This document shows positions 25,506 to 33,966 of a stretch of DNA of 64,000 bases, in pieces. This DNA is from Betaproteobacteria bacterium. Lineage in GTDB: Bacteria; Bdellovibrionota_B; Oligoflexia; Silvanigrellales; Silvanigrellaceae. The stretch is from positions 124,001 to 188,000 of the forward strand of contig VGHE01000003.1 in the NCBI GenBank assembly GCA_016868315.1, given 5' to 3'. How positions within the stretch are numbered: the first letter of the stretch is position 1; each line of letters begins with the position of its first letter. Made by a program: the position numbers and the translations under genes. A model generated the notes under the pieces. The model was given only the letters and a program-made list of their open reading frames with translations, was not told the origin of the DNA and did no database searches.

Positions 25506-27053
25506 TTATTTTACCAATGCTGCTGCGCCGATAACCGCTTTGAGGTCATCATCCGAGAAGCGCAATCCTGCACCAATGAACTGGATTGGCTTGGGTGAGC
25601 GACCGATATTGTCGGCGCCGCCCGTAAAATAGATGTTTGGCGTGACAAAAAGATTTGCGTAACCCTTCACGCGCGCTTTGCCTTTAGAGCGATTCTCGGC
25701 CTGCGACGGATCATCTCCAAACTGGAAGACCTCGACCGAGGTGCTCAATCTATCGGAGAACAGATAAAGGTCACCAGCAACGCCCGCATAGCTCTCGAAC
25801 AATCCAAAGCGCACGCCAACGTTGTCGAAGCGTTTCGCGAACTGAACGTTGTATTTGATGCGTCCGCGATCTTCGGCGGAGACTGTCTCCTCACGCGTAA
25901 CCTCTGCACCCAGAGAATCCTTGGTCACAGTTTTGCGCACTTCACTGATGCTGCGACCCTGCGGGGAGTCCGAGACACCGAGCAGATAGTACCGGTCGGG
26001 TCGGGTTGCGAGACGCAAGTTGAAGTGATTCCCGGTCTGGCCAACGTACTGTGTTTTGTCGGAGAGGCGTAGTTCGCCTTTATAGTCGACTTCAACACGC
26101 AACTTCGCGGCAGGCTTGAGAAGCTCCTGAACGCTCTTCAAAGTGGTTTTGAGTTCATTTGCAGTGTCATCGCGAGACACCAGCTGGCCGAGCGTGCCCT
26201 CGCCTTTTTCAACTTTATCAACGATGAGCTGCACTTTGCTGGTCGCCTGACGCACACTCTGCATGGAGTCATCGAGTGCAGCAATGATGTTCTCAACTCG
26301 ATTCTTGTTTTCTCCGGTCATGATGTTGCGCAGCTCTGCGCTAAAGATCTTCATATCCTTGCTGGCATCAGCAACAGCAAGCATGATTTCGTCGATGCGG
26401 CCATCGTGTTTGCCGAGCAGAGTATTCACTTTGCTCATCGACTCGCGCAGAGCTTCCAGAGTGAGTGCAATGTTGTCTTTCTGGTTTGAAACCAGGTCAC
26501 GAGCGTCGGCTGTGATCTTCTCAACGTTGCTCACGATACTTTGCAGTGTGGACTGGCCATCTCCCGTACCAAAGACTTTGGCAAGAGTACGGCTCACCGT
26601 TTGAAGATCTTGCGCAATGCTGCCCAACGAACTCATGAGCGTGCCCATGTCGTTGAACTCTTTCATCTGAGGGATTTGCGCGCCAGACTCAAGCTCTTCT
26701 TTGCTCTCTTCGTTGCGCACAATTTCAAGGTATACGTCACCGAGGATGCCGCGCGAACGCAATTCTATATACGAACCTTTGGGAATTTTTATGCTCCCAT
26801 TCACGCGAAAATTGACTTTGGCACCCTTGGGGAGGATGTCGATAGATTCGACTTCACCAACTTGAACACCACTCGTACGAACCTGCGTACGCGGACCTAC
26901 ACCACCCACGTTTTGCAGGACCGTGTTGAACTTCTGCGCGCGCGAAGCAAAAGGGTTACCTTCTAAAGTCAGAACAAGCGCGCCCATTGCGGTCAATGCG
27001 ACCACAGTGAAGAGTCCAACTTTCAGCTCAGTTGTTACAGTTCGTTCAAACAC
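25506..27053 (-). CDS. mlaD: MlaD-type MCE protein with a C-terminal beta-rich domain
   Basis: 515 residues, nearly three times E. coli MlaD. GTG start with AGAGGAACC upstream. An N-terminal transmembrane anchor (about 10-30) precedes an MCE domain (about 35-120, with VGPRTQVRTSGVQVGEV and IPKGSYIELRSRGILGDVY). A helical region follows (about 145-310), and then about 200 residues of alternating beta strands (KLRVEVDYKGELRL, FNLRLATRPDRYYLLGV, VRFGLFESYAG, FIGAGLRFSDDDL) that look like an outer-membrane barrel or a beta-sandwich. MCE hexamers shuttle lipids between membranes. It is 126 bases downstream of mlaF. Confidence 0.88.
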   Translation of the reverse strand: MFERTVTTELKVGLFTVVALTAMGALVLTLEGNPFASRAQKFNTVLQNVGGVGPRTQVRTSGVQVGEVESIDILPKGAKVNFRVNGSIKIPKGSYIELRSRGILGDVYLEIVRNEESKEELESGAQIPQMKEFNDMGTLMSSLGSIAQDLQTVSRTLAKVFGTGDGQSTLQSIVSNVEKITADARDLVSNQKDNIALTLEALRESMSKVNTLLGKHDGRIDEIMLAVADASKDMKIFSAELRNIMTGENKNRVENIIAALDDSMQSVRQATSKVQLIVDKVEKGEGTLGQLVSRDDTANELKTTLKSVQELLKPAAKLRVEVDYKGELRLSDKTQYVGQTGNHFNLRLATRPDRYYLLGVSDSPQGRSISEVRKTVTKDSLGAEVTREETVSAEDRGRIKYNVQFAKRFDNVGVRFGLFESYAGVAGDLYLFSDRLSTSVEVFQFGDDPSQAENRSKGKARVKGYANLFVTPNIYFTGGADNIGRSPKPIQFIGAGLRFSDDDLKAVIGAAALVK

Positions 27054-27179: not shown

Positions 27180-27983
27180 TCAGGCGATCGGTTTACCGAG
27201 TGGGCCATGTAAGGAGCCCGTAATAAACTGTCGAATGACAGGATCTGTGCTTGTTGTAAAATCCACAGGACGGCCCGTCGCGTACATCTTGCCTTCGTGA
27301 AGAAAGAAAATCCGATCCGCCAGGCGGAGCACAGATTGAATGTCGTGGCTGATCACCACGCTCGAGAGACCAGGAATTTTCTGCTGCATTTCGATAATCA
27401 AAGAATCGATGAGCTCTGAAATGAGCGGATCCATTCCCGTGGTGGGTTCGTCGTAGAGCAAAATCGATGGATTGAGAGCGAGTGCACGAGCCAACCCGAC
27501 GCGTTTGCGCTGACCGATGGAAAGATCTGGAACTTTCGCATTCCCATAACCAGGCAATCCAACCAGCTCAAGCAAGGAATCTACCCGCTGGGTGAGCTCT
27601 TTGGGTGTCAACTTTTCGAATTCACGAATGGGAAACGCTACGTTTTCTCCAACGCTCATACTGTCGAACAGGGCTCCGTCTTGAAAAAGCAGCCCCATAT
27701 TTCTGCGAGCCTCAATCCATTTTGTTTCAGGGGCATGAGTCAGCTTTTCTCCGTTGACGAAGATTTCACCGGAATCAGGATGAAGAACACCAATGATGTG
27801 CTTGATGGTCACCGACTTGCCCTCGCCTGAGCGGCCGATGATGAAGCTGATTTCACCGCGCTGCAGCTCAAAACTTAAGCCACGCAAAACCTGTTGCTGA
27901 GCGAAGGTTTTGCGCACATCGTTGAACACAACGACGGGCGAATGATTAACTGCTGCACTCGGTATGGTGCTGCGCGATGACAT
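27180..27983 (-). CDS. mlaF: MlaF-type ABC transporter ATPase
   Basis: 267 residues from the ATG at 27983, five bases after the mlaE stop; the longer frame from 28025 overlaps mlaE. It powers phospholipid transport by the MlaFEDB complex on the inner face of the inner membrane. Walker A is GRSGEGKS, the Q-loop region is MGLLFQDGALFDSMSV, the signature is LSIGQRKRVGLARAL (Ile where the canonical motif has Gly), and Walker B is ILLYDEPTTGMDP followed by the H-loop VVISHD. Length and motifs fit the Mla branch. Confidence 0.9.
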   Translation of the reverse strand: MSSRSTIPSAAVNHSPVVVFNDVRKTFAQQQVLRGLSFELQRGEISFIIGRSGEGKSVTIKHIIGVLHPDSGEIFVNGEKLTHAPETKWIEARRNMGLLFQDGALFDSMSVGENVAFPIREFEKLTPKELTQRVDSLLELVGLPGYGNAKVPDLSIGQRKRVGLARALALNPSILLYDEPTTGMDPLISELIDSLIIEMQQKIPGLSSVVISHDIQSVLRLADRIFFLHEGKMYATGRPVDFTTSTDPVIRQFITGSLHGPLGKPIA

Positions 27984-27987
27984 CACA

Positions 27988-28776
27988 TCAGCCTCGCATT
28001 TGAACGAGAGAGATGAAGAAATCAACGATAAGGATGGTCAAAAGACTTGCAACAACGGCCTGGGTCGTTGCTTCACCAACCCCTTTTGCACCACCGCGCG
28101 CATAGAATCCTTTGTAGCAGGCGATTGTGGAGAGGATGAAGCCAAAAACCAAGGCTTTCACCAACCCTTTCTGAATGTCAGAGACCCACACCAGCCACTG
28201 AAGCTGAGAAACGAAGACCGAGGTATCGACCTTGAACATGATCATGCCAAGTATGTAGCAACCGATGAGACCAAGAAATAAAAAGATTGCAGCCAGCAAG
28301 GGCATCATCAATGTGCTGGCAATCACTCGCGGTACAATCAAATAACTCACCGGTGACACGCCCATCGCTTCCATGGCGTCTAGCTGCTCGTTCACGCGCA
28401 TGGTGGCAATTTCTGCAGCCATCGCCGCCCCGGCACGGCCTGTCACGATGAACCCACACATCACCGGAGCAAGCTCAAGCGCCAGTGCCTTTCCAGTCGC
28501 AGCACCCATGAGACCCTCGGCTTTGAAAATCCCGAAGATCTTACCAATCTGCAGACCCAACACTGCGCCCGTGAAGAGCGATGAGAGTGTCACAATAGAG
28601 AGGGACTTGTTCCCGACAAATTCGAACTGTTTGAAGATCAGCTGAATGCGCAACGGTGGGCGCACCATCCAGAAAAAGACTTCCTGCAGAAGAAGTGTGA
28701 AACGCCCAAGGCCGATGACCTGCTTGCGGACCACACCACCCAAGGTTTCAAGGCCACGCAGCGCAACATCCATCAT
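27988..28776 (-). CDS. mlaE: MlaE-type lipid ABC transporter permease
   Basis: 262 residues with five or six hydrophobic segments. The family motifs are visible: LFTGAVLGLQIGKIFGIF, ELAPVMCGFIVTGRAGAAM, AEIATMRVNEQLDAMEAMGV and PRVIASTLMMPLLA. It is the membrane permease of the Mla phospholipid transporter. The start is ATG 28776 (28773 is also possible), and the gene begins two bases after the stop of the upstream ArsA-like gene. mlaF follows directly, so the pair is co-translated. No mlaB (STAS) or mlaC gene is seen in the window. Confidence 0.92.
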   Translation of the reverse strand: MMDVALRGLETLGGVVRKQVIGLGRFTLLLQEVFFWMVRPPLRIQLIFKQFEFVGNKSLSIVTLSSLFTGAVLGLQIGKIFGIFKAEGLMGAATGKALALELAPVMCGFIVTGRAGAAMAAEIATMRVNEQLDAMEAMGVSPVSYLIVPRVIASTLMMPLLAAIFLFLGLIGCYILGMIMFKVDTSVFVSQLQWLVWVSDIQKGLVKALVFGFILSTIACYKGFYARGGAKGVGEATTQAVVASLLTILIVDFFISLVQMRG

Positions 28777-28778
28777 GC

Positions 28779-29909
28779 TCAGCGGTCTCCTGTGTGCTCC
28801 AAGATGCGATGACCTAGTGAAGCCAAATCTTCAAGACGCAACGCAGAGTGTGCGTCGAGGTGTTCAGCCACAGGAAGTGTGAGCACAGACTGTGCTGCAT
28901 GACTCAACTGTTCCTGCACTCGCCTCTGAACGATAATAAAATTATCTAGATAGTTTGCAAAAAAGGAATCATCTTCTTGTTGACGCATGGTGCGCAAAGT
29001 TTCCTCGAAAGAGGGATCTGTGCGCAATGCTTCTGGAAAAGCACGGTTGATGACAACCTGACCGGGTTTCATCTTGAGAGATTTGAGAGTCTTGCTCAGC
29101 TCCCATGCCACCTGTACTGCGTCATATCGGACAGATGTAACAACGTAACAATGCGTTTCCGCCGAACGCAGCCAATGTGCGGCGAAATCAAGGCGGGTCA
29201 TCATCCGCGCAAAGACCTGATCTAGCAGAATCAGGAATTCGGCGAAGTGAAGCATGAACCTCTGACCACCCAATTCAGCGAGTCCATCGAGAATCCGGCG
29301 CGCACCGCCTTTCACCACCCGCTGCAATAATCCAGCCTGGGTGTTGTTCTCCTGAGCAAACCACTTCAGCCATTCAATAAGCTTTCCATCGAGAAATGCA
29401 GAGAGCTTCTCTGGCTTCGAAAGGAAATCAATCGCGTGAATCCCCGGAGCAGTGTCTACGACAAGATCAGTCAGACCCTCTTCACGCTCGGGCCACTCAG
29501 CCATCCGCACCGCTGCAAAGGTATCCGTGGCTGTCGCCAATCTTTCAGCCAACGCCCTGAAAAGTTCATTTTCGTAGAGTCTTTCCTGTGCAGCCTGCGA
29601 CAACCCGGCTTCGTTGACCCAACGCTTCAGGCTCTCTCCAATATGGAGAACACTGGCACGAACCGAGCCAGGACAATTTGGAAGGTCGAGGCGAGCACCA
29701 ATTTCTGGCAACTCCGACAACCCCAGAGCTCCCTGGAGACGCTTGGCAGGATCGATAGACATGAGTCCGACGTGATGGCCACGCTGAGCTAAGGCGAGTG
29801 CGAAGCCCGCGGAGAGAGTTGTCTTACCAACCCCACCCGCACCTAAAAAGAGATGTAGGCGCGGTGGCTTGCCGTTACGCAGTGCGTTTGGAGGATTCTT
29901 TTTCATCAA
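28779..29909 (-). CDS. ArsA/Get3-like ATPase, subunit with intact P-loop lysine but no signature lysine
   Basis: 376 residues of the ArsA/Get3 (SIMIBI) class. The P-loop reads GAGGVGKTT: the catalytic P-loop Lys is present, but the signature Lys that normally starts the KGG motif and reaches across the dimer is Ala. Other motifs are kept: SIDPAKRLQGALGL (DPA switch I) and VVDTAPGIHAIDFL (switch II). Its start overlaps the stop of the paired gene at 29906-30964 by four bases. Homologues bind membrane proteins or anions; the substrate here is unknown. The pair lies between tatA and mlaE, suggesting an envelope or membrane-protein role. Confidence 0.85.
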   Translation of the reverse strand: MMKKNPPNALRNGKPPRLHLFLGAGGVGKTTLSAGFALALAQRGHHVGLMSIDPAKRLQGALGLSELPEIGARLDLPNCPGSVRASVLHIGESLKRWVNEAGLSQAAQERLYENELFRALAERLATATDTFAAVRMAEWPEREEGLTDLVVDTAPGIHAIDFLSKPEKLSAFLDGKLIEWLKWFAQENNTQAGLLQRVVKGGARRILDGLAELGGQRFMLHFAEFLILLDQVFARMMTRLDFAAHWLRSAETHCYVVTSVRYDAVQVAWELSKTLKSLKMKPGQVVINRAFPEALRTDPSFEETLRTMRQQEDDSFFANYLDNFIIVQRRVQEQLSHAAQSVLTLPVAEHLDAHSALRLEDLASLGHRILEHTGDR

Positions 29910-30964
29910 CGCTGATCCTCGCTGATATCGTATTCGAACCCCTGCTGACGGTTAGACTGCAAAACTTCATCATTCTCGAGGATTTTTTCGTTGGCATTGA
30001 CAAGCCAATCTGCAACTCCATGCAACACCGTCGAGGCAGATGACTCTGGGTGAGCAAGACCGATATCAGGAACACTGGTTATGGCGATTTTATAACCACG
30101 CTGCTTGAGCTCATCGCGCAGCACCATTTCAAAATGCTGCCGCTTGCGCAAATCTCGGTGCAAAAGTGCCAATGCACGGGTTGCGGCGTTGGTTGTTAAC
30201 TTCTTTTCCCACAATCCAACCACATGCTCGTAATCCATCGACTGAGGATTTTTTTCTACATAGGGAGCGATTGAACGGTTAATTAAGAGGGCATTCGGTG
30301 AACGCCCCAGATCGTGAGTCAACTTGGGAAGGAACTCGAGTGTCTCCTCCACAGGCAATTCCTCGGGAAGAGTCACAAGGGCAGTACCCACTAACTTCGG
30401 GTCGGCCAGCATACTGGCCACACGTTCGCACTCGGCAGCCAAGGGTCCCGTCATCCCAAACTTGGCGATGGTGGGGGCGATGGTAAAAAGAGAAACACCG
30501 TGCCCCGTTGCCTGAGCATCCACAACCACACGATCGAAACGCGTGCCGCGAATTTCTTCCGACAAACAAATCAGCCAAAAGAGACGCCCGAGAAAGAACA
30601 ACTCCCGCACACCAGGAGCAGCGTGAAGCAGACGTTGAACATGTTTGTTTTCAATCACGAGGTTGTAGACGAGACGCAACTTGAGGTGATCGATGAAATA
30701 CTCGCGGATGGCTTCGTCAGCCGAGAAATTCATGACCCAAAGATTGTGCGCCAGTGGTGAGGAATCGTGGCCGGCCGAGGGTCGAGAGAATAACGAGGAT
30801 ACGGCGTCGTTGAGTGACCACTGAACAATTAGAGTTTTTTCACCACGCAAAGCGCACGCCTGGGCGAAAGAGGTGGCGAGAGTGGTACGTCCCACCCCGC
30901 CTTTGCCCAGAAAAAAGACCAATCGCTGAGAAATGGTTTCAGCCAGATTGGTGTGCGCAGTCAT
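29906..30964 (-). CDS. ArsA/Get3-like ATPase, subunit with signature lysine but Arg in the P-loop
   Basis: 352 residues, related to its neighbour at 28779-29909. The P-loop reads GKGGVGRTT: the signature Lys (GKGG) is kept, but the P-loop Lys is Arg. Switch I is degraded ([12 protein letters not shown], no DPA), and switch II reads [14 protein letters not shown]. It is therefore a probable non-hydrolysing partner that could supply its signature Lys to the ATP site of the other subunit. Its start overlaps the tatA stop (ATGA) and its stop overlaps the next start, so the three are translationally coupled. The substrate is not recognisable. Confidence 0.83.
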
Positions 30965-31263
30965 TTGTTAGGGTCGCGATGTTCAACGTCGACGTAGTCA
31001 ACCTTGGCCTGCTGTGAGGACTGGGCGCTGTGAAGCGAGTTGGGTTGAACGGACTGGGCACCAATGGAGGGTGCCTGCGGAGCTGCTTGCTGTGCAGGAG
31101 TCTGGGCGTTCTTGGCAGCATCATCGCCACCGCCGTCGAGACCCTTCTTGAAGTTGCGGATACCCTCGCCCAGCGATTTTCCGACGTTGGGCAGGCGATT
31201 GCCGAACAGCAGCAGCGCGATTGCAAGAATAACTAAAAGCTCAGTAAATCCAATATTTGGCAT
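30961..31263 (-). CDS. tatA: Sec-independent translocase protein TatA
   Basis: 100 residues from the ATG at 31263, with GAGGAGG upstream; a longer frame from 31326 is rejected. One N-terminal membrane helix (about 5-20, [19 protein letters not shown]) is followed by the amphipathic helix with the Phe-Gly hinge and [14 protein letters not shown], the TatA hallmark. The C-terminal half is Ala/Gln/Ser-rich and probably disordered. TatA forms the pore that exports folded proteins with twin-arginine signals. No tatC is seen in the window. It is the first gene of the long minus-strand block and is divergent from mqnE, with 169 bases between. Confidence 0.92.
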
Positions 31264-31432
31264 GCCCGCCCTCCTCGCCTGGGACACTCTCAAAACACGT
31301 TCGGGGTATCGGCTTACTCGCGCCAAAGAATGAGGTCAATGCCACGAAATTATTGACGCTCGTCAACCCCATTTGAGAGCACCGAAAACGATGGTATCAG
31401 TCTAGCTGTCAAATTCATAGGAAAGGGTTCCC

Positions 31433-32620
31433 ATGGAATCGGTGACTTGCAGAACATCACACGTTCCCCCCTCCCCAATAGCTGGGGCACGTCCGCGGCC
31501 AGACGTCCAGGTGAGCTACACTCAAATTCAAAGCGCGCTCACGCGCGCACTCCGTGGTGAACGCCTGAGCTTCGAAGATGGTGTGAATTTGTATCATTCA
31601 CCAGATCTCCTCGAACTCGCTGCGGTCGCCAACGAACTTAATCTGCGCAAGAATGGGCGTGATGTATTTTTCAACGTCAATCGCCACATTAACCCTACCA
31701 ACATCTGTGCCCTGTCCTGCAAGTTCTGCGCGTTCTCGCGCAAACCAGGCGAGGAAGGTGCATACGCATACTCCGAAGACGAAATCGCGCACCGTGCGAA
31801 AGTCGCGGCTGACTCCGGAGCCACCGAAGTGCACATGGTGGGTGGCCTGCATCCGCGTTGGAAATTGGCTAACTACACAAACATCATCCGCACCGTGAAA
31901 GAAACCGCACCGCAGCTTCATGTGAAAGCCTTCACTGCAGTTGAGCTCGACTGGCTCGCGCGCAAAGAACGCAAGACCGTTGCAGAACTGCTCGGTGAAC
32001 TGCGCGCTGCGGGATTGGGAAGTTTGCCCGGAGGTGGTGCGGAAATTTTTGCACCGTACATCCGAGAGAAAATCTGCGACACAAAGCTCACCGGTGAGGG
32101 ATGGCTCGATATCCATAGAACAGCCCACAAGATGGGTCTCCGTTCGAACTGCACCATGCTGTACGGCCACATTGAAGACGTCGAGGCACGCGTCGACCAC
32201 ATGATGCACTTGCGCGACCTGCAAGAAGAAACCCGTGGCTTCAACGTGTTTATTCCGCTTGCATACCAACCCGAGAACAACGAACTCGGTATCAATCGAC
32301 ACACCTATGGGGTTGATGACCTCAAGACCATCGCGATTGCGCGCCTCATGCTCGACAACTTCCAGCACATTAAGAGCTATTGGGTCATGACGGGCGACCG
32401 TGTGGCGCAAACTGCACTCCACTATGGTGCAAACGACCTTGATGGCACTGTCGTCGAAGAAAAAATTGCAAACATGGCGGGCAGCCGAGCCGGAATGGCG
32501 ATGGCCAAGAGCAAACTTCTGCGCGTCATCCGCGATGCGGATCGCATCCCGGTGGAACGCTCTACCGTTTATGAACCCATTCGCCGCTACGACAATCCCG
32601 CGGAGGACATGCTGCAATGA
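31433..32620 (+). CDS. mqnE: Aminofutalosine synthase MqnE
   Basis: 395 residues. A radical SAM enzyme that joins an adenosyl radical to 3-(1-carboxyvinyloxy)benzoate, the first committed modification after MqnA in futalosine-type menaquinone synthesis. The cluster motif is ICALSCKFC (Cys92, Cys96, Cys99). It also has VHMVGGLHPRWKL and the family segments GLGSLPGGGAEIF and FIPLAYQPENN. AGGAAAGGG precedes the ATG. Residues 1-28 are an extra N-terminal stretch. Its stop overlaps the mqnC start (ATGA). Confidence 0.93.
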   Translation: MESVTCRTSHVPPSPIAGARPRPDVQVSYTQIQSALTRALRGERLSFEDGVNLYHSPDLLELAAVANELNLRKNGRDVFFNVNRHINPTNICALSCKFCAFSRKPGEEGAYAYSEDEIAHRAKVAADSGATEVHMVGGLHPRWKLANYTNIIRTVKETAPQLHVKAFTAVELDWLARKERKTVAELLGELRAAGLGSLPGGGAEIFAPYIREKICDTKLTGEGWLDIHRTAHKMGLRSNCTMLYGHIEDVEARVDHMMHLRDLQEETRGFNVFIPLAYQPENNELGINRHTYGVDDLKTIAIARLMLDNFQHIKSYWVMTGDRVAQTALHYGANDLDGTVVEEKIANMAGSRAGMAMAKSKLLRVIRDADRIPVERSTVYEPIRRYDNPAEDMLQ

Positions 32621-33966
32621 TCAACGCGTCCATAACCAACACACTCAATCCTAATGCCCTCAATTGTGAGAGCAAAAACACTTGGCGCGATTGCGAAAAA
32701 GACATCGCACCTGGCACGCTGCCTGCAGCCTCTGGTTTTCAGGAAGCGCCGACACTTTCTGAAATCAACGCGCGCGATGCTGCCCGCCAAAACATGATTG
32801 CTGCGTTCGAACGGCCAGCGAAGGCGCACGATGAGCTGATGCGCGCAGCGCTCGAAAAAACCGAAGATACGGCACTCAAAGCAGCCTACCTGACAGCCTT
32901 TGAAGGCAAGCGCCTCTCGGGTGAACAGGGGCAGAAGCTTTTGGATGCGGGCGACGTTAATGTTCTCGGTTGGTTGGCAACGAGAGCCAAAGAGCGCTTT
33001 CATCCAGGCGGCAAAGTTTCATTCCTCATCGACCGCAACATCAACTACACAAACATTTGCCGCATTGGCTGTGACTTTTGTGCCTTTTATCGGCGCGGCC
33101 CGGAAACCGATGCGTACGTTCTGCCCAAAGAAGAAATCTTCAAGAAAATTGAAGAGACCATTGAGCTTGGTGGAACCGGAACACTGATGCAAGGGGGCGT
33201 AAATCCGCACCTCAAAATCGAGTATTACGAAGATCTCTTCCGCAGCATCAAACAACGCTACAAGATCCACCTGCATGCGTTGTCCGTAATCGAAATTGAA
33301 GGCATCGCGCAGGTTTCGCGGCTAACCGTGGAGGAAACTCTCCAGCGCCTCAAGGCGGCCGGGCTTGATTCCATTCCCGGAGCGGGCGCAGAAATTCTCT
33401 CCGACGAAATCCGTCTCGAGCAAAGCCCAGTGAAGCGCCACAGCCACCGCTGGATTAAAGTGATGCAGGAGGCGCATAAGGCTAACCTGCCCACAACTGC
33501 AACAATGATGTTTGGTGCTCTTGAAGAACGCAAACACATCATTGAGCACATTCTCCGCATCCGCGATGCACAAGATGAAACTCAGGGATTCTACGCATTC
33601 ATTTTGTGGACCTTCCAAGGCGAGAACACAGAGCTGGCAAAGAAGAACCCAGACATGCAGCCCACGAGCGGAGTGGAATATCTGCGCGTGCTGGCCGTGA
33701 GCAGGCTGATGATGGACAACATTCCAAACATCCAAGGCAGCTGGGTCACCATGGGACCAAAGATAGGCCAAATCTCATTGCACTACGGTGCAAATGATAT
33801 GGGCTCCATCATGATCGAGGAAAATGTCGTGAGTGCGGCAGGAACCTCTTACACACTCGACCGCAAGAACATGATTGAGCTCATTCGTCGTTCGGGATTC
33901 ACACCCGTTCAACGCGATACCTACTACAACATTATTGCCGAGTACCCTGAGTTCCCCGCACAGTGA
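32617..33966 (+). CDS. mqnC: Cyclic dehypoxanthine futalosine synthase MqnC
   Basis: 449 residues. A radical SAM enzyme that closes the ring of dehypoxanthine futalosine in menaquinone synthesis. The cluster motif is ICRIGCDFC (Cys148, Cys152, Cys155), followed by LMQGGVNPHLKIEYYEDLF, GLDSIPGAGAEIL and ILWTFQGENTEL. It carries about 70 extra N-terminal residues compared with typical MqnC, rich in Asn and Glu. It overlaps mqnE by four bases and the next aminotransferase gene by four. mqnA, mqnB and mqnD are not in the window. Confidence 0.92.
   Translation: MINASITNTLNPNALNCESKNTWRDCEKDIAPGTLPAASGFQEAPTLSEINARDAARQNMIAAFERPAKAHDELMRAALEKTEDTALKAAYLTAFEGKRLSGEQGQKLLDAGDVNVLGWLATRAKERFHPGGKVSFLIDRNINYTNICRIGCDFCAFYRRGPETDAYVLPKEEIFKKIEETIELGGTGTLMQGGVNPHLKIEYYEDLFRSIKQRYKIHLHALSVIEIEGIAQVSRLTVEETLQRLKAAGLDSIPGAGAEILSDEIRLEQSPVKRHSHRWIKVMQEAHKANLPTTATMMFGALEERKHIIEHILRIRDAQDETQGFYAFILWTFQGENTELAKKNPDMQPTSGVEYLRVLAVSRLMMDNIPNIQGSWVTMGPKIGQISLHYGANDMGSIMIEENVVSAAGTSYTLDRKNMIELIRRSGFTPVQRDTYYNIIAEYPEFPAQ

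Follow-up and report, generated by a model that had tools for sequence, protein, structure and literature searches.

A BagAB-type pair of Get3-like ATPases with an arginine-type P-loop, encoded beside tatA and mlaEFD in Silvanigrellales

Get3-like ATPases and the pair encoded in the window

In dimeric ATPases of the MinD/ArsA/Get3 type, a signature lysine of one subunit acts on the ATP bound by its partner. Most Get3 proteins are homodimers, and there is precedent elsewhere for ATPases that pair asymmetrically and have one good site. The Mycobacterium tuberculosis proteins BagA and BagB (Rv3679 and Rv3680) are two unlike, adjacently encoded Get3-like ATPases that occur together in the crystals 6bs3, 6bs4, and 6bs5 (PDB entry title, 'ADP-bound bacterial Get3-like A and B in Mycobacterium tuberculosis'), and mycobacterial bagAB has been associated with protection against the toxicity of glycerol and nitric oxide (cited in PMC10597346). 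Escherichia coli ArsA (PDB ID: 1f48) has two P-loops in a single fused chain, each with both lysines, and Get3/TRC40 (PDB IDs: 2woj and 3zq6) is a homodimer whose subunits meet at a CXXC zinc motif; the roles of the two lysines in Get3 have been described (PMC10248533). Get3d (NosGet3d and AtGet3d) has the Get3 fold without CXXC, and forms a homodimer with both signature lysines, reported to be conserved (PMC10248533), and an acidic switch-I residue, but without the adenine Asn. In some cyanobacterial members of Get3d the P-loop Lys is replaced by Arg, and NosGet3d, which combines this Arg with Glu for the switch-I Asp, is a slow ATPase (kcat, 0.28 per min; PMC10248533).

The window (the whole 64,000-nucleotide stretch of DNA that was analysed) encodes on its minus strand two adjacent ATPases, subunit A (29906..30964; 352 aa) and subunit B (28779..29909; ~375 aa), both assigned to ArsA_ATPase in Pfam. 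The best PDB match was 6bs3_A (Rv3679; E, 2.2e-18) for A and 6bs3_B (Rv3680; E, 2.1e-26) for B, and the best NCBIfam families were BagA and BagB, respectively. With 88.7 of 400 bits against the BagA equivalog NF053622 and 128.3 of 521 bits against the BagB equivalog NF053621, both scores fall far short of the cut-offs, so that A and B are distant relatives of BagA and BagB rather than equivalogs. AlphaFold models of A and B (mean pLDDT, 84.9 and 78.8, respectively) had 6bs3_A and 6bs3_B as their top Foldseek matches; in VIA-align 2, 6bs3_B led for the B model (Z, 26.2; 332 aligned; rmsd, 4.4) and 6bs3_A was tied first for the A model (Z, 26.2; 309 aligned; rmsd, 3.8). On these one-to-one best matches in sequence, curated family, and fold, A and B constitute a BagAB-type pair. 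An arsenite pump ATPase was rejected, as the TIGR04291 scores (46.9 and 41.7 of 650 bits) are below the cut-off and the window has two separate genes with no fusion. The curated family NF047398 ('KGGVGR-motif variant AAA ATPase') has Arg at the position of that in the P-loop of A, which matched it over only 37 residues, far under the cut-off.

The P-loop of A (codons GGC AAA GGC GGG GTG GGA CGT ACC ACT) reads GKGGVGRTT, with the signature Lys21 kept and the P-loop Lys26 changed to Arg, and its switch I aligns as VQWSLNDA with VSTDPASN of ArsA, DPA being lost; the switch-II Asp149 and the adenine Asn229 are retained. B has GAGGVGKTT, with Ala24 at the position of the signature Lys, and retains the P-loop Lys29, the switch-I Asp53 (DPA, in IDPAKRL), the switch-II Asp152, and the adenine Asn288. 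The motif pair named in the original prediction, including the loss of DPA in A, is exact in sequence and position. Between close relatives, A evolves under purifying selection (dN, 0.21; dS, 1.65). As in Rv3679 and Rv3680, the A-type subunit has the signature Lys without DPA, and the B-type subunit has GAGGVGKTT with DPA. Rv3679 retains the P-loop Lys (GKGGTGKST), whereas A of the window has Arg, a variant feature that touches no known requirement of the family. The fold and the deviant Walker A dimer logic are common to the window pair, ArsA, and Get3, but the window pair consists of two genes with unequal sites, unlike the fused ArsA, and CXXC is absent from both A and B (counting duplicates, 4 of the 180 A ORFs and 4 of the 171 B ORFs have any C..C pattern). 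Lack of CXXC is shared with Get3d, from which the window pair differs in having a single signature lysine, no acidic switch-I residue in A, and an adenine Asn in both subunits.

Distribution of catalytic residues over the two sites

A residue census covered distinct proteins, 91 of A and 88 of B, drawn from the phylum of the window, a Bdellovibrionota-like set (the phylum of two delta-proteobacterial relatives), and Leptospirae; named genomes were scanned with an order-level A alignment, which biases this named set towards the clade with Arg in the A P-loop (hereafter, the Arg clade). The signature Lys was present in all 91 A proteins and in none of the 88 B proteins, which have Ser, Ala, Thr, Pro, Gly, Cys, or Asn instead. 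The P-loop Lys, switch-I Asp, switch-II Asp, and adenine Asn of B were each found in 88/88, and the switch-II Asp and adenine Asn of A each in 91/91. An acidic switch-I residue is missing from 84 of the 91 A proteins: none of the 25 in the Arg clade has one, and 5 Asp and 2 Glu were found among the 66 elsewhere. The A pocket is otherwise invariant in the census (the glycines, Thr/Ser27, Asp149, and Asn229), indicating that it is maintained. Exactly one site, made up of the B pocket and the signature lysine of A, therefore has every catalytic residue, with labour strictly divided between A and B.

On this census, a layout with a single complete composite site is old in the family and not specific to the window. 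The heterodimer with one composite ATP site that had been proposed is the natural reading, in that an intact B pocket faces an intact signature lysine of A and Rv3679 and Rv3680 co-crystallise, but being ancestral it is for the most part not new. The further idea that the two substitutions are a matched, co-evolving pair has to be given up: the signature lysine is absent from all 88 B proteins, including the partners of the 66 Lys-type A proteins, and M. tuberculosis Rv3680 already has GAGGVGKTT while Rv3679 keeps the P-loop Lys. Homologues without covariation had been named beforehand as one result that would refute the proposal; the two residues do not covary, and the composite site still stands.

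We consider it likely that A and B form a BagAB-type heterodimer with one complete composite ATP site, the site in A most probably holding nucleotide without hydrolysing it. The heterodimer in the window species is presumed by analogy with 6bs3–6bs5, and the assignment of hydrolysis and the state of the A site are read from the residue patterns. ATP would be bound in the B pocket by Lys29, Asp53, Asp152, and Asn288, and A would supply Lys21 across the interface to this ATP. The mirror site in A would have lost the B-derived signature lysine and the switch-I Asp early, across almost all of the family sampled; at the base of the Silvanigrellales/Leptospirae branch, its P-loop Lys would have been changed to Arg in addition. 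Nucleotide is most likely still held at the A site, as a structural or regulatory element, since its glycines, Mg-side Thr/Ser, switch-II Asp, and adenine Asn are invariant, and the absence of the signature lysine and the switch-I Asp, both also missing outside the Arg clade, argues for a site that does not hydrolyse it. In M. tuberculosis, the ATP motifs of Rv3679 and of Rv3680 reportedly both have to be intact (Whitaker et al. 2020), in which case binding at the A site would matter in that species at least.

The Arg cannot serve as the sole ground for a dead A site, because NosGet3d with Arg hydrolyses ATP. Both sites might accordingly work, with Arg26 replacing the P-loop lysine and the A site binding and slowly hydrolysing ATP, as the activity of NosGet3d with Glu for the switch-I Asp (PMC10248533) and the invariance, within the Arg clade, of every other residue of A in the P-loop, switch II, and the adenine contact would allow. 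We regard this as unlikely: Get3d reportedly keeps the signature lysine, whereas the A site receives none from its partner (0/88) and has no switch-I Asp (0/25).

Origin of the P-loop arginine

Arg occupies the P-loop position in 25 of 25 A proteins of the Arg clade, which comprises all sampled Silvanigrellales A proteins and 12 distinct Leptospirae-group sequences, and in none of the 66 elsewhere, all of which have Lys. The motif pair was found again in 25 distinct A proteins with their partners, and its recurrence in two unrelated groups rules out chance or a sequencing error as the source of the Arg. On the A tree, built by a quick method with the Arg position masked, the Arg corresponds to one change (SH-aLRT, 99). 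The B tree gave two changes for the Arg label, and one mislabelled row was found in it (L019). The A of this row had been dropped because it nearly duplicates L018, and its B is placed on the Lys side in the census (23/65 instead of 24/64); we do not read the extra change as a second origin of the Arg.

In the Leptospirae phylum, a BagAB-like pair was detected in only 12 of 247 genomes (E <1e-20), all of one class, in which 12 of 48 genomes have strong matches to the pair, with differing gene neighbours (L045-L053, L056, L069, and L078). The Leptospirae A proteins group with those of Silvanigrellales and not with those from the rest of the Silvanigrellales' own class. This grouping and the patchy presence suggest that the Arg-type pair was transferred between phyla.

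Other residues are fixed in the same clade, namely Gln48 and Trp49 of A, which precede the lost switch-I Asp, and Ala154-x-Gly156 in switch II of B. As all of these lie with the Arg on one branch, no cause can be assigned to any of them. It is possible, though doubtful, that the Arg is neutral drift in an already non-catalytic pocket and is of no consequence of its own. The A site was without the signature Lys and mostly without the switch-I Asp before the Arg arose, and the single origin has no independent repeats, both as expected from drift; drift fits poorly, however, with an Arg that is fixed in 25/25 distinct proteins of two phyla with no further change there, and that is accompanied by clade-fixed Gln48 and Trp49 near switch I. 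The sequences place the Arg as a later, single-origin variant of the known BagAB kind, for which no report was found in the open-access literature searched. The variant needs no new principle; with one of two ATP sites altered further, it amounts to a natural experiment.

Gene neighbourhood of the pair

The gene order in the window is tatA-A-B-mlaE-mlaF-mlaD, all on the minus strand. The tatA-family gene (30961..31326; PF02416; E, 1.8e-14) lies directly upstream of A and overlaps its start, and the probable start codon of B is the ATG with its first base at 29906, which overlaps the TGA of A as TGATG. The mlaE permease gene (27988..28776; PF02405; E, 6.7e-73) starts 2 bases past the stop of B, and is followed by mlaF for an ABC ATPase (27180..28025; PF00005; E, 6.3e-32) and mlaD for an MCE-domain protein (25506..27053; PF02470; E, 2.6e-15). 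The two overlaps and the 2-base gap show tight packing of the genes.

In all seven other Silvanigrellales loci holding B, mlaE follows it, and in other orders of the window's class B is next to mlaE in 18 of 24 loci, in which A and B are only ~30% identical. The adjacency of B and mlaE is absent from the 15 Bdellovibrionota-like loci and from the Leptospirae loci, and among the BagAB-type loci sampled the tatA/mlaEFD context occurs only in the window's class. The tatA-A-B-mlaE-mlaF-mlaD operon is conserved in this class (e.g., L130, L136, L149, and L151-L156), and no report of a BagAB-Mla operon was found in the open-access literature searched. Judging from gene order, the pair probably serves there in the making or handling of the TatA/MlaEFD membrane proteins, which provides a concrete client hypothesis for BagAB-type pairs in one bacterial class. 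A bolder version, to which we give little credence, is that Arg26 and Gln48-Trp49 have rebuilt the A site as a fixed, non-hydrolysing nucleotide holder, and that the pair would be an obligate one-site Get3-like machine dedicated in the window's class to making or loading the operon-encoded TatA/MlaEFD.

Two genomes depart from the usual arrangement. G014 (1.2 Mb) has tatA and a short Arg-type A (L054 8962-9831; L163), with no B found beside A or elsewhere in this assembly, which is 74% complete; taken at face value, it runs counter to the pair model. In G024, A and B are on different contigs (L131 and L132), and B stays with mlaEFD. Such cases, together with the homodimeric state of most Get3 proteins, would be expected if A and B were independent ArsA-like proteins acting as homodimers. 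This is highly improbable, since a homodimer of B would have no signature lysine and one of A no switch-I Asp, the A and B genes are adjacent and often overlapping in nearly all loci, and the homologues share one crystal.

A second A/B pair, not adjoining mla genes, is present in some genomes of the window's class (G020, G028, and G021; L134, L138, and L140). Upstream of the window operon and divergent from it, two radical-SAM genes (31433-33966), which from their appearance we take to resemble mqnE and mqnC of the futalosine route to menaquinone, keep their position in close relatives.
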